A DNA stretch of 64,000 nt, from assembly GCF_024748695.1 (NCBI RefSeq), contig NZ_CP087176.1:2907501-2971500 (forward strand). The letters run 5' to 3'. Under the pieces are notes generated by a model. That model was not told the DNA's origin. It saw nothing but the letters and a program-made list of their open reading frames with translations, and did no database searches. Positions 13,817 to 40,226 of the stretch are shown in pieces (position 1 is the first letter of the stretch; each line of letters opens with the position of its first letter). The stretch comes from Pseudomonas sp. B21-040 (lineage in GTDB: Bacteria > Pseudomonadota > Gammaproteobacteria > Pseudomonadales > Pseudomonadaceae). The position numbers were made by a program, and so were the translations under genes.

Positions 13817-13929
13817 AGATTCTCACTTTCAACCGGGCGGGGTGATCCGGTGGCGAACTCTTCAGGCATGCGCGTGCGCGCTGCCGGTCGTCGTCCCGTA
13901 TGCCCGCCACCAAAGCCAAAGGGCATCCG

Positions 13930-15012
13930 ATGAAAACACTGGCCAAACTCCCCGTCACCATCGTTACCGGTTTCCTCGGCTCGGGCAAAACCACGCTGCT
14001 GCGGCACATGCTCGACAACGCTCAGGGCCGTCGCATCGCGGTGATCGTCAACGAGTTTGGCGAGCTGGGCATTGACGGCGAAATCCTCAAGCAATGCTCC
14101 ATCGGCTGCACCGAAGAAGAAGCCAACGGTCGCGTTTATGAGTTGGCCAACGGCTGCCTGTGCTGCACGGTTCAGGAAGAATTCTTCCCGGTGATGCGCG
14201 AACTGGTTGCCCGTCGCGGCGACCTCGATCACATCCTCATCGAAACCTCGGGCCTGGCCCTGCCAAAACCGTTGGTTCAAGCCTTCCAATGGCCGGAAAT
14301 CCGCAGTGCCTGCACCGTCGACGCGGTCATTACCGTCGTCGACAGCCCGGCCGTGGCCGCCGGCACCTTTGCCGCGTTCCCGGATCAGGTCGACGCCCAG
14401 CGTAAACTCGACCCGAACCTGGACCATGAATCGCCGCTGCACGAGCTGTTCGCAGACCAATTGGCCAGCGCCGACCTGGTGATCCTCAACAAGGCCGACC
14501 TGATCAGCCCTGAAGACCTGGCCCGCGTGCGCCTTGAAGTCGCTGAAGAATTGCCACCGGCGGTCAAAGTCATCGAAGCCAGCAGCGGTCGCCTACCGCT
14601 GGACGTGCTGATCGGCCTCGGTGCCGGTTCCGAAGAGCACATCGACAGCCGTCACAGCCATCACGACCATCACCACGACGGTGATGACCACGACGGTGAT
14701 GACCACGACGACCACGATCACGATGCGTTTGACTCGATCTCCCTCGAACTGCCGCAAGCCGACGAAAGCCTGCTGCTGGATGCGCTGACCCAACTGGTGG
14801 TCAAGCATGGCATCCTGCGTGTGAAAGGCTTCGCCGCGATCCCCAACAAACCGATGCGTTTGCTGATTCAGGGCGTGGGCACGCGTTTCGACAAGCACTT
14901 TGACCGTCAGTGGGGCGCCGATGAGGCGCGGACCACGCGCTTGGTGTTGATCGGTCAAGACCTGGACGCCGCGCAACTCGAAGCGCAATTGCGCGCCGCG
15001 CTCAGCGTTTAA
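13930..15012 (+). CDS. cobW: CobW-type metal chaperone GTPase (cobalamin synthesis)
   Basis: A 360-residue G3E-family GTPase thought to deliver cobalt to the cobaltochelatase. Residues 14-21 form the Walker A GFLGSGKT, residues 76-79 the metal-binding CLCC motif, 'ILNKADLI' the guanine-specificity motif, and the C-terminal CobW domain follows. Residues about 237-265 are an extreme His/Asp tract, probably a metal store or sensor. I chose the ATG at 13930 for its AAAGGG ribosome site; an in-frame ATG at 13900 would add ten residues. cobN follows after three bases. Zinc chaperones share the family, but the riboswitch and cobN context favour cobalt. Confidence 0.93.
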   Translation: MKTLAKLPVTIVTGFLGSGKTTLLRHMLDNAQGRRIAVIVNEFGELGIDGEILKQCSIGCTEEEANGRVYELANGCLCCTVQEEFFPVMRELVARRGDLDHILIETSGLALPKPLVQAFQWPEIRSACTVDAVITVVDSPAVAAGTFAAFPDQVDAQRKLDPNLDHESPLHELFADQLASADLVILNKADLISPEDLARVRLEVAEELPPAVKVIEASSGRLPLDVLIGLGAGSEEHIDSRHSHHDHHHDGDDHDGDDHDDHDHDAFDSISLELPQADESLLLDALTQLVVKHGILRVKGFAAIPNKPMRLLIQGVGTRFDKHFDRQWGADEARTTRLVLIGQDLDAAQLEAQLRAALSV

Positions 15013-15015
15013 GCC

Positions 15016-18000
15016 ATGCACCTGCTCAGGACCCAGCCCGGCGGTTTCGTGTCGGACGACAACATCGCCGACCTTGGACAAACCCCCGCCGAGCTGGTGA
15101 TCCTGTGCAGCGGTGATTCCAGCCTGGCGCTGCTCGCAGAAGCCGCGCAGCAATTGCCCGATGATTATCCCAGCGTGCGCCTGGCCAATCCGATGCAGGT
15201 GCAAAACCATGCCTCGGTCGACCTGTATGTCGACGAAGTGCTGCGGCACGCCAAGGTGATTCTGATTTCGCTGCACGGCGGCATCGCCTATTGGCGTTAC
15301 GGCATCGAGCGGCTGGTGGAGCTTTCCCAGCGGGGCGTGCAACTGATTCTGGTGCCGGGTGATGATCGCCCGGACCCGGAACTCAGCGACCTGAGCACCG
15401 TGGCGGCCGGCGATCGCGACCGGCTCTGGCAGTTTTTGCGTCAGGGCGGCATGGGCAATGCCCTGGATTTTTTTCGCTGCCTGGCCACTCAATGGCTTGG
15501 CCGCGATTACGCCTGGGCCGAGCCCCAAACCCTGCCGCGCACGGCGATTTACCATCCGAAAAAAAGCCCCGCAGTCCTGAAAGACTGGCAAGCCGATTGG
15601 CACGCCGATCAACCGGTGGCGGCGGTGTTGTTTTACCGCTCGCATTTGCAGGCGGCCAATACCGGTTTTATCGATGTTTTCTGCCAGCGTTTGCAGGCGG
15701 CGGGGTTAAATCCCTTGCCGATTGCCGTGGCCAGTTTGAAAGAGCCCGGCTGCCTGACGGTGGTCGAGGATTGGCTGGATGAAGTCGAGGCGGGGGTGAT
15801 TTTGAACACCACCGGTTTCGCCCAATCCAGCCCCGAAGCGCCGCACCTGCGACCGTTTCGCCGCAACATCCCGGTGATTCAGGCGATTTGCGCCCAAGAC
15901 AACGAGCCCGGATGGCGCGCCAGTGAGCAAGGCCTCGGCCCGCGTGACCTGGCGATGCACATCGCATTGCCGGAACTGGACGGCCGCATCATCAGCCGCC
16001 CGATCAGCTTCAAGGACTTGGCGTGGCGCAGCGAGCGCAGTCAGTCGGACGTCGTTTGCTATCGTCCTCAACCCGAACGCATGGATTTCGTCGCCGAACT
16101 GGCGCGGCGCTGGATCGATCTGGCGCGGCTGGCGAACAGCGAAAAACGTATCGCCCTGATTCTCGCCAACTACCCGACCCGGGATGGGCGCATCGGCAAT
16201 GGCGTCGGCCTCGATACCCCGGCCGCCGCGTTGAATATCTTGCGAGCGCTGCAGGTCGAGGGTTATCCGCTGTCGGCCGAGTTACCGGACAGCGGAACGG
16301 CGTTGATCCAGCAATTACTCGGCGGGGTCAGCAACGACCTCGATACCCTGGATCAGCGTCCCTGCCATCAAAGCCTCACGCTGGACGAATACCGGCAGAT
16401 GTTCGACGCCTTGCCCGAGGCCAACCGCCAAGCAGTGCTGGAACGCTGGGGCACGCCCGAAAGCGATCCGATGTGCCGTGGCGGACGAATGATGATCGCC
16501 GGCCTGCGCTTCGGCCTGACCTTCGTCGGTATTCAGCCGGCGCGTGGTTATCAGGTGGACCCGAGCGCGGTGTATCACGACCCGGACCTGGTGCCGCCGC
16601 ACGGTTATCTGGCGTTCTACTTCTGGCTGCGCAACACCTACGGGGCCCACGGCGTGATTCACGTCGGCAAGCACGGCAACCTCGAATGGTTGCCGGGCAA
16701 AGGTGTCGGGCTCTCGGAAAACTGCTGGCCGGACGCATTGCTCGGGCCGCTGCCGAACATTTATCCGTTTATCGTCAATGACCCGGGCGAGGGCGCGCAG
16801 GCCAAGCGCCGCACTCAAGCGGTGATCATCGATCACCTGATGCCGCCGCTGACCCGCGCTGAAACCTACGGACCACTGCGCAATCTCGAATTGCTGGCCG
16901 ACGAGTATTACGAAGCGCAACTGCTCGATCCGCGTCGTGCTCGGGAATTGCAGCGCGACATCCTGCAACTGGTGCGCGACACGCACATTGATCGTGAACT
17001 GCAACTGGACGAAAAACTCGACAGCGATGCCGACGCGGCGATCTGGTTGCCGCGTCTGGACACCTATCTCTGCGATTTGAAGGAATCGCAGATTCGCGAT
17101 GGCCTGCACATCTTTGGCGAGTCACCGACCGGGCGCTTGCGCATCGACACCTTGCTGGCCTTGCTGCGGATTCCCCGTGGCGATGGTCGTGGTGCGCAAT
17201 CCAGTTTGCTGCGAGCGTTGGCGAAGGCGTTCGAGCTGGGATTCGATCCTCTGGATTGTGCGTTGGCTGACCCATGGGAAGGGCCGCGCCCCATTGAACT
17301 GCAAACCCTCACCGATGAAGCCTGGCGCACGGCGGGTGATACCCGTGAACGCCTGGAATTGTTCGCCGCTCAACTCATCTCGCAGACTTTGATGACTGAA
17401 TCCGGTCCCTGTAGGAGCGAGCCTGCTCGCGATGCGGTTCATCATTCAACATTGATGTCGATTGACCCACTGCTATCGCGAGCAGGCTCACTCCTACAGG
17501 AGACGGGTTGGTCCGACGTGCAAGCCATCCTCGACAGCCTGCGCGAAGTCGTCGCACCACGCCTTGACGCCTGCGGCCCAGCCGAAATGCGCGGTCTGCT
17601 CGACGCCCTGAAGGGCCGCTTCGTTCCCGCCGGCCCCAGCGGCGCACCCAGCCGCGGCCGTCTGGACGTGCTGCCTACCGGGCGCAACTTCTATTCGGTG
17701 GACGTGCGCAACCTGCCGACCACCACCGCGTGGCGCATCGGTTTCCAGTCGGCCAACCTGATCCTTGAACGACATCTGCAAGACCACGGCGATCATCTGC
17801 GCCAACTCGGTTTGTCCGTGTGGGGCACCGCGACCATGCGCACTGGCGGCGACGACATTGCCCAAGCCATGGCGCTGATGGGCGTGCGTCCGGTCTGGGC
17901 GACCGGCAGTCAGCGAGTCGACGATTTCGAGATTCTGCCGCTGAGCTTGCTCGACCGCCCGCGTGTGGACGTTACCTTGCGCGTCTCCGGTTTTTTCCGC

Positions 18001-18873
18001 GATGCCTTTGCCAACCTGATCCGCTTGTTCGACGCCGCGGTGCAAGCGGTCGCCGCGCTGGATGAACCCGACGACCTGAACCCGTTGGCGGCCAAAGTGC
18101 GTGCCGAACGTGAAGCGTTGATGCAATCGGGGCTGGATGAAGACGCTGCGAATCGTCAGGCCGGTTGGCGAATTTTCGGGGCCAAACCCGGTGCGTATGG
18201 TGCCGGCGTGCAGGGCGCCATCGACGGGCGTCTGTGGCAAAGCCGCGAAGATCTGGCCGAGGTATACCTGAACTGGGGCGGCTATGCTTATGGCGGCTCG
18301 GACGAAGGTACCGCCGCTCGCGAACAATTCGCCCAGCGCCTGAGCCAGGTGCAAGCGGTGCTGCAAAACCAGGACAATCGCGAGCACGACTTGCTCGATT
18401 CCAACGATTATTACCAGTTCCAGGGCGGCATGCTCGCCGCCGTAGAAAGCCTCAGCGGTGAAGCCGCGGCCAGTTACCACGGCGATCACAGTCAACCGGA
18501 CTTGCCGAAAATCCGCACCTTGAAGGAAGAGCTGAACCGGGTGATTCGTTCCCGGGCGGCCAATCCAAAGTGGATCGACGGGGCCAAGCGTCACGGCTAC
18601 AAAGGCGCGTTTGAACTGGCGGCGACGGTCGACAACCTGTTTGCGTTCGACGCCACTACGCAACTGATTGACGATCACCAGTACGCGTTACTGGCCGACG
18701 CTTATTTGCTCGATCCGGCAACTCGCGATTTCGTTCGCGAGCACAACCCGCATGCGTTGCGAGACATGACCGAACGGATGCTGGAAGCGCAGCAGCGAGG
18801 GATGTGGAAGGAACCGGGCGAGTATCGCGAGGCGCTGGAGAATTTGTTGTTGGATATAGAAGAAGATTCATGA
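15016..18873 (+). CDS. cobN: Cobaltochelatase large subunit CobN
   Basis: At 1285 residues this is the ATP-dependent cobalt-inserting subunit acting on hydrogenobyrinate a,c-diamide. The CobN/BchH family core is clear in 'VIHVGKHGNLEWLPGKG', 'FPVGRNFY'-like 'LPTGRNFYSVD' and 'NDYYQFQGGMLAAVESL'. It starts three bases after cobW. Residues about 799-828 are encoded by a REP doublet inserted in frame, which gives a segment (ESGPCRSEPARDAVHHS) absent from usual CobN and explains the extra length. The frame stays open, so the protein is probably still made. It needs AAA+ and VWA partner subunits, encoded next. Confidence 0.95.
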   Translation: MHLLRTQPGGFVSDDNIADLGQTPAELVILCSGDSSLALLAEAAQQLPDDYPSVRLANPMQVQNHASVDLYVDEVLRHAKVILISLHGGIAYWRYGIERLVELSQRGVQLILVPGDDRPDPELSDLSTVAAGDRDRLWQFLRQGGMGNALDFFRCLATQWLGRDYAWAEPQTLPRTAIYHPKKSPAVLKDWQADWHADQPVAAVLFYRSHLQAANTGFIDVFCQRLQAAGLNPLPIAVASLKEPGCLTVVEDWLDEVEAGVILNTTGFAQSSPEAPHLRPFRRNIPVIQAICAQDNEPGWRASEQGLGPRDLAMHIALPELDGRIISRPISFKDLAWRSERSQSDVVCYRPQPERMDFVAELARRWIDLARLANSEKRIALILANYPTRDGRIGNGVGLDTPAAALNILRALQVEGYPLSAELPDSGTALIQQLLGGVSNDLDTLDQRPCHQSLTLDEYRQMFDALPEANRQAVLERWGTPESDPMCRGGRMMIAGLRFGLTFVGIQPARGYQVDPSAVYHDPDLVPPHGYLAFYFWLRNTYGAHGVIHVGKHGNLEWLPGKGVGLSENCWPDALLGPLPNIYPFIVNDPGEGAQAKRRTQAVIIDHLMPPLTRAETYGPLRNLELLADEYYEAQLLDPRRARELQRDILQLVRDTHIDRELQLDEKLDSDADAAIWLPRLDTYLCDLKESQIRDGLHIFGESPTGRLRIDTLLALLRIPRGDGRGAQSSLLRALAKAFELGFDPLDCALADPWEGPRPIELQTLTDEAWRTAGDTRERLELFAAQLISQTLMTESGPCRSEPARDAVHHSTLMSIDPLLSRAGSLLQETGWSDVQAILDSLREVVAPRLDACGPAEMRGLLDALKGRFVPAGPSGAPSRGRLDVLPTGRNFYSVDVRNLPTTTAWRIGFQSANLILERHLQDHGDHLRQLGLSVWGTATMRTGGDDIAQAMALMGVRPVWATGSQRVDDFEILPLSLLDRPRVDVTLRVSGFFRDAFANLIRLFDAAVQAVAALDEPDDLNPLAAKVRAEREALMQSGLDEDAANRQAGWRIFGAKPGAYGAGVQGAIDGRLWQSREDLAEVYLNWGGYAYGGSDEGTAAREQFAQRLSQVQAVLQNQDNREHDLLDSNDYYQFQGGMLAAVESLSGEAAASYHGDHSQPDLPKIRTLKEELNRVIRSRAANPKWIDGAKRHGYKGAFELAATVDNLFAFDATTQLIDDHQYALLADAYLLDPATRDFVREHNPHALRDMTERMLEAQQRGMWKEPGEYREALENLLLDIEEDS
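17409..17500. repeat. REP doublet inserted in frame inside cobN
   Basis: Two inverted REP units (TGTAGGAGCGAGCCTGCTCG and its partner ending CTCACTCCTACAGG) lie inside the cobN coding frame and are translated without a stop. All other REP doublets in the window are intergenic. Confidence 0.9.
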
Positions 18874-18879
18874 GGGCAT

Positions 18880-18989
18880 GATCGTTCCCACGCTCTGCGT
18901 GGGAATGCCTCAACGGACGCTCCGCGTTCGGCTCTGGGGGCGCAGAGCGTCCCATGCTGCATTCCCACGCGGAGCGTGGGAACGATCAC
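18880..18989. repeat. Intergenic palindromic repeat, family 2, copy 2
   Basis: A 110-base element framed by GATCGTTCCCACGCTCTGCG and the inverted CGGAGCGTGGGAACGATCA, with inner arms GGACGCTCCGCG / CGCAGAGCGTCC. It fills the gap between cobN and the chelatase ATPase gene, and its reading frame (MIVPTLCVGM...) produces a false N-terminal extension of that gene. Confidence 0.9.
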
Positions 18990-19015: not shown

Positions 19016-20014
19016 ATGACCGACACCCCGCATTTCCCGTTATCCGCCGTGGTCGGCGCCGACGACTTGAAGCTCGCCCTGTACCTGACCGCCATCGACC
19101 CGAAAATCGGTGGCGTACTCATCGAAGGCCCTCGCGGCATGGCCAAATCGACCCTGGCCCGTGGTCTGGCAGATCTGCTCGCCAGCGGTCAATTCGTCAC
19201 GCTGCCGCTGGGTGCAACCGAGGAACGACTGGTCGGCACCCTCGACCTGGATGCGGCGCTGAGCGATGGCCGTGCGCAATTTTCCCCCGGCGTACTGGCC
19301 AAGGCTGACGGCGGCGTGCTCTATGTCGATGAGGTCAATCTGCTGCCCGATCACCTCGTGGACCTGTTGCTTGACGTCGCCGCCAGCGGCACCAACCTGA
19401 TCGAACGCGACGGCATTTCCCATCGGCATTCGGCGAAATTCGTACTGATCGGCACCATGAACCCGGAAGAGGGCGAGTTGCGTCCACAACTGCTCGATCG
19501 CTTTGGCCTTAACGTTGCGCTCAGCGGCCATACCGCACCGACCGAGCGTGGTCAGATCATCCGTCGACGACTGGATTTCGACAGCGATCCGCAACAGTTC
19601 TGCGCGCAGTGGGAACATCAACAGCAGGCGCTGCGCGAACGCTGCGAGAAGGCCCGTAGTCTGTTGGCGAGCATCCCCCTCGACGATCAAGCGCTCGCAC
19701 TGATTACGGAGCGCTGCTTTGCCGCCGGGGTCGATGGCTTGCGCGCCGACCTGGTCTGGCTGCGCGCCGCCCGCGCCCATGCCGCATGGCAAGGGGCGAA
19801 CGCGATCACCGAGGACGATATCGACGCCGTCGCCGACTTCGCCTTGCGTCATCGTCGCCGCGAGCAAACACCGCCGGCACCGCAATCCAGTCAGTCACCG
19901 TCTGCGCAACCTCCCAACCCGAGCGAAGGCCAGGGCCAATGGGGAGACATGCCGGCCCAGGCGTCGCCGGTCGGCGCCCGCCGTGAAGTGCCGAGCTGGC
20001 CAAAAAAGCCTTAG
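19016..20014 (+). CDS. chlI: ChlI/CobS-like AAA+ ATPase of cobaltochelatase (zero-frame product)
   Basis: The zero-frame product is 332 residues. Walker A is GPRGMAKS (38-45), with Ala in the last-Gly position as in many ChlI-like cobaltochelatase ATPases. Walker B is VLYVDEVNLL (101-110) and the arginine-finger region contains 'RPQLLDRFGL'. A Pro/Gln/Ser-rich linker ends at PSWPKKP and a TAG stop. The ATPase is expected to power CobN. The start at 19016 lies just after the repeat; the longer upstream frame is repeat-derived. The stop falls six bases after a slippery heptamer, so a longer product with a VWA domain can be made from the same start. Confidence 0.9.
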   Translation: MTDTPHFPLSAVVGADDLKLALYLTAIDPKIGGVLIEGPRGMAKSTLARGLADLLASGQFVTLPLGATEERLVGTLDLDAALSDGRAQFSPGVLAKADGGVLYVDEVNLLPDHLVDLLLDVAASGTNLIERDGISHRHSAKFVLIGTMNPEEGELRPQLLDRFGLNVALSGHTAPTERGQIIRRRLDFDSDPQQFCAQWEHQQQALRERCEKARSLLASIPLDDQALALITERCFAAGVDGLRADLVWLRAARAHAAWQGANAITEDDIDAVADFALRHRRREQTPPAPQSSQSPSAQPPNPSEGQGQWGDMPAQASPVGARREVPSWPKKP

Positions 20015-20049
20015 GCATTCGCCCTCGATCTGATGCGGGGGCGAATGCC
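20002..20049 (+). promoter_or_regulatory. Programmed -1 ribosomal frameshift signal
   Basis: The zero-frame codons CCA AAA AAG contain the heptamer A AAA AAG at 20002-20008, the type used in E. coli dnaX. After a five-base spacer, an 11-bp perfect stem (GGCATTCGCCC at 20014-20024 with GGGCGAATGCC at 20039-20049) closes a 14-base loop. The zero-frame stop TAG overlaps the first stem base. Slipping back one base continues as ALGIRPR... into the VWA frame. Confidence 0.88.
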
Positions 20050-20688
20050 AGACCCCGCGCAGGACGGCTGGACAACGGCAAGCAAGGCAAGCGTCACGCC
20101 GCACGCAGCGGCTCGATCAATTGGCCCGGAACCTTGCTCAACGGCCGGCCACGTCAATGCAGCGATGTACTGTTCCATCTGCGCACGCGAAGCGCCCATG
20201 AATTGTGGCTGGTGATCGTCGATGCGTCGGCTTCGACGCGGCGTCATCAAGCATTAAGCGATGCCAAGGGTTTGCTGGCGCAATTGTTCGACGATGCCTA
20301 TCGCCAACGTGCGCGACTGGCGTTGCTGACGGCCAGCGGCAATGTGCCGAAATGGCAGGTGCAAGGCTTGAAAGCCTCCAGCGGTTTGCGTACCTGGCTT
20401 GATGGGCTGGGTGCAAGCGGCGGCACGCCAGTGTTGGCGGCGCTGGAAGAGGCCGGGCGTTGGCTGGTGGCACGGAAAATACGCTTCCCCGCGGAGCAGC
20501 AGCGAGTGTTGCTGCTGACCGATGGACGATTGAAAGAGTGGTCAGTTCTGCCTGCTCTGGATTGTCCCATTTTGCTGGTGGATATCGAAAGAGGAGCGAT
20601 TCGACTAAACCGGGCTAGACGGTTGGCAAGTGACTTGTGTGCCACTTATTTGCATATCGATATCCCGGAATCTCCCATTGTTTTCTGA
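20008..20688 (+). CDS. chlD: ChlD-like VWA domain, C-terminal part made by -1 frameshift
   Basis: From 20008 in the -1 frame, 226 residues follow without an ATG start. A basic linker leads into 'GSINWPGTLLNGRPRQ', then a von Willebrand A domain with the MIDAS motif D-x-S-x-S (VDASAS, near residue 403 of the fusion), 'GGTPVLAALEEAGRW' and 'LLTDGRLKEW'. Fused to the upstream ATPase the product is about 557 residues, the ChlD arrangement. The only alternative start is a TTG at 20134, which would cut the conserved linker. The long form would be the middle chelatase subunit beside the short ATPase. Confidence 0.85.
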   Translation, partial: ALGIRPRSDAGANARPRAGRLDNGKQGKRHAARSGSINWPGTLLNGRPRQCSDVLFHLRTRSAHELWLVIVDASASTRRHQALSDAKGLLAQLFDDAYRQRARLALLTASGNVPKWQVQGLKASSGLRTWLDGLGASGGTPVLAALEEAGRWLVARKIRFPAEQQRVLLLTDGRLKEWSVLPALDCPILLVDIERGAIRLNRARRLASDLCATYLHIDIPESPIVF

Positions 20689-20747: not shown

Positions 20748-21811
20748 CTAAATAAAGTTAATCAGCCCATCCAAAATGGAACCGGTAGCTTGGGTTTTGA
20801 TGGTTACGGATTTTTTTACTACTTCGTTAGTGTAGTAGCAATTAACTCGGTGTCGATCGAGCAAATCAATTACTTCGTTGTGTGGGTGTGGGTCATTCGA
20901 AGTGCCGAACTTTCGGTTGTTATGGCTGATAATTGCATGACAAGGTTTAATGGCGAGCATTGCGTTGTTGGAAATATTTTCTCTACTGCCATGATGTGGG
21001 ACTTTTAGAAATCTCGCAGATATGTCGGTTTTTTCTTCGATCAGCCGTTCAAATACCGAGTTGTCTGCATCACCTGTAAATAACCAGTCGCCGCTGTCGT
21101 GCTGGTGTTTGAATACAATGCTGGCTCGGTTGGAGTTCAACTTTACGTGCCGGGAGACGTAGTAATCTATATTGTTTTTTGAGGCGCCGGCGAGTGACTC
21201 ACTGAGCGTGATGAAAAATAAATGCACGAATTTTCGCGCAAAGAACCCATACTCCAATTGGCTTTCGATGTGGCGTTGCAAAACCAGTGGTGAGACATAG
21301 TTAATTATTTCTTCTCTCGGAAGCTCTATTCCATATTCCGAAAGTATAGTCAGCGCTTGTTCGATGGACGTTTCGGAGGTTGGGAAGTCGTCGAAAATTT
21401 TTTCGGGGTGGCGAGGGGGTTCAATATGGTTGCGTGGGTGCACAAAGTATCTCCCTGTGCGACCAACTGCGGGTGCAAGGTGCTGATCAACTTCCAGTTC
21501 GGCTGTTTAAGTTTTTCAGTGGTGTGTTTTTTTAGATAGCCGTATATTTTTGTTATTTCAGGAAGATAGTAGGGGATATAAGTGTGGAAAATTTCTATTT
21601 TTTTTGACTTTAATAGTCGCGGAACCCCACCGATATGATCTTCGTGTGAGTGGGTGATTAGTAACCGATAAATACCTGGGCTCAGTATGTTTTCAATATT
21701 CGCCTTGGCGGGACCTGTGTCTATTAGAAGCGGTGGATCGCTTAAATCACAACCTTGTCCTGGATTCAGAATAAAGGCGTCGCCTTGACCTACGTTTATT
21801 ACAGTTAGCAT
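20748..21811 (-). pseudogene. ComEC-like metallo-beta-lactamase-fold hydrolase, frameshifted
   Basis: The 5' half starts MLTVINVGQGDAFILNPGQG and carries the metal motif THSHEDH (H54, H56, D58, H59) and 'IDTG'. The 3' half, one frame back, has 'LFTGDADN', 'VPHHGSREN' and 'CHAIISHNN', the other conserved blocks of ComEC/Rec2-type hydrolases. The break is at an A6T4 run (21394-21403): one more A would restore a single frame of about 355 residues. It could be a real mutation, a sequencing error, or slippage-based expression. The stretch is much more AT-rich than its neighbours, which suggests acquisition. Soluble members of this fold are not DNA-uptake channels; substrate unknown. Confidence 0.75.
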
Positions 21812-21939
21812 TGTGAACACTCGGCTTCCATGGCAAATGATGCGCCTCGTCTTCCGGATTGCGATATTGGGAGTGCAAAGTATCGTCCCGGGCGGGCAGA
21901 GAGACGATACTAATATGCCATCATCGTGTCTAGCTCAGG

Positions 21940-40120: not shown

Positions 40121-40226
40121 CGTTCCCACGCTCCGCGTGGGAATGCCTCAACGGACGCTCCGCGTTCGGCACTTGGGACGCAGAGCGTCCCGGGCTGCAT
40201 TCCCACGCAGAGCGTGGGAACGATCA
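40121..40226. repeat. Intergenic palindromic repeat, family 2, copy 3
   Basis: Framed by CGTTCCCACGCTCCGCGTGG and the inverted AGAGCGTGGGAACGATCA, with inner arms GGACGCTCCGCG / CGCAGAGCGTCC. It lies between bdhA and aacS inside the operon. Confidence 0.9.

Follow-up and report, generated by a model that had tools for sequence, protein, structure and literature searches.

The window (the whole stretch of DNA analysed, 64,000 nucleotides from Pseudomonas sp. B21-040) almost certainly carries one gene of the chlID type (fs-chlD) for the aerobic cobaltochelatase, from which two subunits would be obtained through a -1 frameshift. The ATPase and VWA parts of one ChlD-type protein are found in overlapping frames of this gene, as seen from profile matches and translation, and its anatomy, conservation, covariation and gene content are matters of direct observation. 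The phenomenon is already known in Pseudomonas: the gene is a well-supported instance of a published device, because the available text of PMC3711429, PMC5009743 and PMC9227772 describes it in this genus. The part worth following is a mirror arrangement in another genus of the same order.

Anatomy of the locus

The host genome is a single contig of 6.75 Mb. In the window, cobW, cobN and the frameshifted gene follow one another in this order, all on the + strand, with 142 bases between the end of cobN and the frameshifted gene. The features of the locus are as follows.

13900..15012, + strand: cobW, cobalamin biosynthesis GTPase (TIGR02475, 525.2 bits, cut-off 332.1)
15016..18873, + strand: cobN, large cobaltochelatase subunit (TIGR02257, 1736.6 bits, cut-off 822.05)
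19016..20014, + strand: frame-0 product, 332-aa AAA+ ATPase (small subunit, ChlI-like; sequence, AAA_5, AAA_lid_2)
20002..20008, + strand: slip heptamer A_AAA_AAG (sequence; 138 of the 142 genus loci have it in frame)
20008..20688, + strand: -1-frame part that adds 226 aa (basic linker, then VWA domain) as the C-terminal end of the 557-aa medium subunit (translation; VWA_2 34.4 bits, cut-off 27; TIGR02442 positions 460-641)
20009..20013, + strand: 5-nt spacer between heptamer and stem (sequence)
20012..20014, + strand: frame-0 stop TAG (sequence)
20014..20024, + strand: 5' arm of the stem, GGCATTCGCCC (sequence, RNAfold, covariation)
20039..20049, + strand: 3' arm of the stem, GGGCGAATGCC (sequence, RNAfold, covariation)

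Read from the ATG at 19016, frame 0 runs through CCA (20000) AAA AAG CCT TAG at the junction, and GGCATTCGCCC (20014-20024) forms 11 perfect base pairs with GGGCGAATGCC (20039-20049). Direct reading therefore confirms the junction, the heptamer, the 5-nt spacer and the exact stem described in the initial annotation. No stop interrupts the -1 frame over 226 codons (20008-20685), which from the slip site encode a basic linker and then the VWA domain, as annotated, and the product sizes of 332 and 557 aa are correct (331 + 226 = 557). The VWA domain also proved to lie in the -1 frame without an ATG of its own: no ATG opens this frame in the gene, and the first codon in it that resembles a start is a TTG inside the frame, at 20134. 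The ATPase scores 417.4 bits with TIGR02442 (ATPase part) and 340.9 bits with TIGR02030, both below cut-offs that are set for whole proteins.

The space between cobN and the frameshifted gene houses the first of two doublets of the inverted repeat TTCCCACGCNNNGCGTGGGAA (window positions 18885-18982 and 40123-40220), in each of which the two copies start 77 bases apart. Shuffled sequences lead one to expect 0.00 such doublets, and we take them to be REP/REPIN-like. Beyond the frameshifted gene, on the - strand, a metallo-beta-lactamase-fold gene (20748-21820) is seemingly split into overlapping frames (21350-21820 and 20748-21443), the second of which is shifted by -1 from the first; the overlap contains GAAAAAATTTTC, and a Pfam match is confined to the first part. 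The split seems to reflect damage, assembly error or another frame change.

Conservation of the slip site in Pseudomonas

AAAAAAG as such is not rare, with four occurrences in the window against 6.75 expected. It is conservation that decides against chance: beyond what chance would give are the position of the heptamer where the frames meet, the stem, and the degree of conservation. With the ATPase as query, orthologues were retrieved from 142 of the 149 genus genomes searched, and all 142 loci were examined; the other seven genomes contain only remote matches (3e-8 or weaker) and no orthologue. A_AAA_AAG is in frame in 138 of the 142 loci, and the VWA domain lies in the -1 frame in all 138 of these. 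The frame-0 stop follows the heptamer one codon on in 135 loci, after seven codons in two and immediately in one. The codon that supplies the first A of the heptamer is CCA in 99 loci, GCA in 31, ACA in 4, CAA in 2, TCA in 1 and CTA in 1, each a minority choice for its residue in these genes (e.g., CCA 11.6%, GCA 8.4%), so the residue varies between loci and the A is constant. The run is A6 in 136 loci and A7 in two. Among 66 further named loci (L241-L306), drawn partly from the same genomes, 63 have the heptamer in frame and three are cut before the site.

Four genus loci depart from this pattern. L160 is cut by a contig end. In L164 and L165 the ATPase match itself is broken into different frames, cobN being also broken in L164 and whole in L165. 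L081 reads C_AAA_AAG, has the VWA domain in frame 0 behind the stop and a -1 frame that stops after 8 codons, and cobN is also split in its genome. Damage or faulty assembly seems a better account of L081, L164 and L165 than a functional variant; a true loss of the heptamer or of the frame is possible at L081, because its ATPase part is intact.

Two records labelled with other genera, L296 (Pantoea sp. Cy-639) and L285 (a Paucimonas MAG), carry a Pseudomonas-type locus of 75-76% identity with the same heptamer, and their genus labels may be wrong. The Rfam sRNA P15 matches some loci of the Pseudomonas family (L173, L174 and L178 at 2741-2861 on the + strand, L290 at 2145-2265 on the - strand), roughly 240-360 bases upstream of the ATPase start and on the opposite strand; the window's own locus (L017) gave no P15 match.

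Stability and covariation of the stem

In RNAfold predictions the stem of the window gene lengthens to 14 pairs, with an energy of -28.9 kcal/mol and a z-score of -4.45, and none of 200 dinucleotide shuffles is as stable. Across the genus loci, the 53 nt located 3' of the heptamer have a median energy of -29.0 kcal/mol; the mean over 690 control windows taken from these genes is -17.2 kcal/mol, and 1.4% of the windows reach that median.

Covariation was assessed in an alignment of 106 of the 138 junction sequences, one per distinct stem region, in which 90.6% of the cells of the 11 named stem pairs are paired. Double-change cells number 44 against 13.0 in shuffles (0 of 500 reach 44), and sliding one arm of the stem yields at most 13. 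Two of the five covariation measures, those counting pairs or types, are weak: six pairs show a double change against 4.2 in shuffles (37 of 500 reach six), and further pair types number 15 against 12.4 (24 of 500 reach 15). The outermost pair is absent in 47 of the 106 rows, 37 of which have a TGA stop. RNAalifold did not recover the stem from the 106-sequence alignment, returning two unrelated pairs only. An Rfam scan of 19850-20250 produced two sub-threshold matches, one of them to P17 over the stem (13.3 bits against a gathering threshold of 45, E = 0.39), and these were taken as chance.

Gene content and lysine tRNA

The search for separate chlI, cobS or cobT genes, named as a check in the initial annotation, returned matches that are weak or absent. 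The genome has no match to CobT, a single match to CobS of 29.1 bits, below the cut-off, and no other ChlI-like match above 26.3 bits; cobN is present, and no strong match to a separate small-subunit gene was found. A CobNST layout with separate cobS and cobT was rejected on the same results.

Within the genus, the gene and CobN go together, as judged from the pattern in 14 tested genomes: CobN scores above the cut-off in all seven tested genomes that have the gene, and among the seven that lack it the CobN match is absent in five and below the cut-off in two. The latter, G060 and G082, each have a CobN-like frame (1491 and 1448 aa, respectively), which may belong to a different chelatase-like protein. 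Of 14 genomes tested outside the genus, G183 lacks both the gene and CobN; G201 (86% complete) has a fused homologue, and its CobN match is absent.

A_AAA_AAG is the heptamer of E. coli dnaX, where slippage is helped by the missing CUU lysine tRNA. A lysine tRNA pattern admitting both anticodons gave 32 matches in 17 of 19 genomes, two of them in the window's own genome, and all have the anticodon TTT, with the limitation that the pattern could miss a CUU tRNA with a different body. ARAGORN identified four of these tRNA loci, one from the own genome, as tRNA-Lys TTT.

Proposed mechanism and alternatives

Conservation, covariation, gene content and the linkage to cobN support the proposal of the initial annotation that one gene yields a small ATPase and a medium ATPase-VWA subunit. 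Most ribosomes would reach the TAG at 20012 and release the 332-aa AAA+ ATPase as the small subunit. The stem (20014-20049) would hold a fraction of the ribosomes at A_AAA_AAG, where they could slip back by one base, the lysine tRNA with anticodon UUU being able to re-pair in the -1 frame. Reading would then continue into the 557-aa ATPase-VWA protein, the medium subunit, and both products would serve CobN, which is encoded just upstream. We infer in this way that slippage occurs in this organism, at some rate, and that its products assemble; the two may be made in a fixed ratio, as initially proposed.

The A6 homopolymer raises the question of whether RNA polymerase, instead of the ribosome, slips on the A run, the more so as two loci outside the genus (L181 and L183) have runs of up to A10 followed by G. 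The in-frame phase of A_AAA_AAG, the spacer and the covarying stem are, however, what ribosomal -1 slippage uses, and the run stays short throughout the 138 loci. Six A are short for RNA polymerase slippage, which counts against transcriptional slippage and makes it very improbable. Slightly less probable still is coupled or internal initiation, by which the VWA part would be started separately. The TTG at 20134, for example, opens a 184-aa frame containing the VWA domain, and a crude count in the 138 genus loci found a VWA-frame ATG in 43 and an ATG, GTG or TTG in 134, although the stretch it covered was too wide, starting at the upstream stop and ending 25 codons into the VWA match. Downstream-frame initiation alongside frameshifting is also reported for some experiments in the accessible part of PMC3711429. 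Against this, the window gene has no VWA-frame ATG before 20134, and the TTG is not kept as a start, because the codon varies among the 80 loci in which the site was placed (TTG 52, CTG 19, TTA 5, CTC 3, CTA 1; 58 of the 138 unplaced). A separate start also leaves the kept heptamer and stem unexplained.

A sequencing error or a decaying gene could mimic split frames, and indel damage or an altered frame does occur in the three genus loci L081, L164 and L165. The frame relation and the heptamer are nevertheless shared by 138 of 142 loci, which come from different genomes, and 63 of the 66 loci L241-L306 also have the heptamer in frame, which leaves this explanation a negligible probability. Ribosomal -1 frameshifting at A_AAA_AAG is accordingly the reading retained for the window gene.

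Relation to known frameshifting genes

The statement in the initial annotation that frameshifting chlD genes occur in cobalamin producers is right, even for Pseudomonas, according to the available text of PMC3711429, PMC5009743 and PMC9227772. Frameshifting was measured for the chlD family by Antonov (2013, PMC3711429, in the part available), with Pseudomonas among the six genera of the cluster. Three members assayed in E. coli shifted frame at 63, 40 and 10% with runs of A11, A9 and A7, respectively; the assayed sequences carry A7 to A11, and the window gene A6G. The accessible text of these three papers gives no rate of frameshifting for a Pseudomonas sequence with A6G. Kuznetsov (2022, PMC9227772, likewise in part) describes the small and medium Co-chelatase subunits as products of one gene and places P. 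aeruginosa at stage 8. The window gene and the fs-chlD genes, as far as the available text of PMC3711429 and PMC9227772 describes them, are the same gene, with the -1 direction, an A-rich slip site, a downstream RNA structure and the small and medium Co-chelatase subunits made from one gene, and no essential difference was found. The downstream structure is present at the window gene, the negative RNAalifold result notwithstanding. Added here are the genus-wide counts, the stem covariation and the joint absence with cobN. The literature search found no publication naming two or more of PA2942, PA2941 and cobN.

The available portion of Atkins et al. (2016, PMC5009743) names Pseudomonas, describes A_AAA_AAR as being under strong purifying selection, and prints a stem from P. 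protegens; the genus loci agree with this, the heptamer being kept at the overlap in 138 of 142. The stem of this P. protegens magnesium chelatase element has the 11 pairs of the window stem except for one compensated change from T-A to C-G. The same portion proposes a possible triplex and calls the sequence not strongly conserved, whereas in the present alignment the pairing is kept by covariation.

The dnaX-like arrangement claimed in the initial annotation holds for the signal and not for the output. E. coli dnaX shares the A_AAA_AAG heptamer, the stem a few bases downstream and the tRNA-Lys with anticodon UUU; slipping, however, gives the short product there and would give the long product at the window gene. 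A dnaX-type layout was rejected for the window gene, since its frame 0 ends with the TAG at 20012, short of the VWA domain, and does not encode the full-length protein.

Homologues across the order

In a survey of 293 genomes of the order, 49 loci outside the family of the window (L180-L228) were examined; the survey left out G310, G365, G260 and G284, of similar match strength, and matches weaker than 1e-58. The VWA domain is fused in frame in 36 of these loci, lies in the -1 frame in 8 and is unclassed in 5. Both wirings thus occur in one order, and the eight -1 loci have a run of A6 to A10 before G. Several loci outside the family (L180, L181, L183, L185 and L223) have an A run before G near the stop of A7 to A10, longer than the A6 of Pseudomonas. 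A linker heptamer, G_GGA_AAG, recurs among the in-frame fused genes, for the most part in a single genus, g28. Among in-frame fused homologues outside g28, 9 of 31 genes have an X_XXA_AAR site in the linker, where synonymous shuffles give 4.6 and the observed count is reached in 2 of 300, a result that is suggestive only.

Candidate mirror case in genus g28

Genus g28, of the same order, is probably Marinomonas. The gene was found in 45 of 48 searched genomes; 45 loci were read and 44 were counted, namely those with in-frame fused ATPase-VWA chelatase genes (L321-L361, L203, L182 and L186). The dropped locus, L362 in genome G454, contains an ATPase frame of 312 aa; its 2360 examined bases show no VWA match, possibly a loss of the medium-subunit part.

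The linker of the fused gene contains G_GGA_AAG in 38 of the 44 loci, at residues 370-387 in 29, 319-325 in 7 and 335-337 in 2; the six genes without it are L337, L341, L357, L359, L360 and L361. The linker PGK is written CCG GGA AAG at 36 of 37 sites, for which codon usage predicts about 1% (0.286 x 0.122 x 0.304), and TCG GGA AAG, at a third position, is present in two genes. Ranked by synonymous identity among consecutive conserved codon triplets, PGK comes first in the first group (30 genes, 223 triplets; 0.97 against 0.71 for the next) and first in the second (7 genes, 262 triplets), there tied with two others. A linker slip site occurs in 11 of 12 genes against 1.6 in synonymous shuffles (0 of 300). 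The rest of these 12 genes is also somewhat above the shuffles (9 slip sites against 5.4), the density being 1.6 per thousand codons outside the linker against 8.2 within it. As the genes are related, none of these counts represents independent events.

Among the 29 loci of the first group, the -1 frame meets a stop after 1 codon in 19 loci, after 3 codons in 6 and after 11 in 4; the distance is 7 codons in 7 of 7 loci of the second group and 5 codons in the other two. A purine-rich motif, GAGG, AGGA or GGAG, begins 11 nt upstream of the site in 25 of the 29, 12 or 14 nt upstream in three and is lacking in one; in the second group it begins 14-16 nt upstream in 7 of 7, both being counts without a control. 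Compared with synonymous shuffles, hairpin energies at the sites stand out weakly (mean z of -0.73 at 29 sites and of -1.01 at 9), and we do not propose a stem in g28.

None of the 30 g28 genomes searched has CobS above the cut-off. Seven of them contain a 346- or 397-aa frame that matches CobS at 7e-31 to 2e-26 and could be another ATPase. With the fused protein as query, the best second locus scores 1.3e-6; the ATPase alone retrieves second matches to about 2e-12, at some 32% identity. CobN is present in the one g28 genome checked (G377).

Judged by these sequence patterns, it seems fairly probable that the fused gene of g28 carries a dnaX-type -1 signal at which a slip would make the short subunit, the mirror of the Pseudomonas wiring, and that a two-subunit output would then have been reached through opposite wirings in related bacteria. 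Independent origins within g28 are suggested by the signal at two linker positions, and a third in two genes, within one genus. The layout would resemble that of E. coli dnaX, with the long protein read in frame 0 and the short one made by slipping. Antonov reportedly published a further study of frameshifted chlD genes in 2020. The literature search, which did not extend to that study and hence does not show novelty, found no publication on Marinomonas chelatase frameshifting or on chlD together with dnaX and programmed frameshifting; the words marinomonas and dnaX are absent from the accessible text of PMC9227772.

Biological implications

The window gene shows how a bacterium can draw two AAA+ motor subunits for cobalt insertion from one gene, and two subunits from one gene would explain the absence of a clear cobS or cobT in this genome. 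If the mirror arrangement in g28 is true, the output of two products would be maintained by selection as its wiring, in which the slip makes either the long or the short product, turns over. The role of the subunit ratio in cobaltochelatase would then be directly testable by comparing both wirings.
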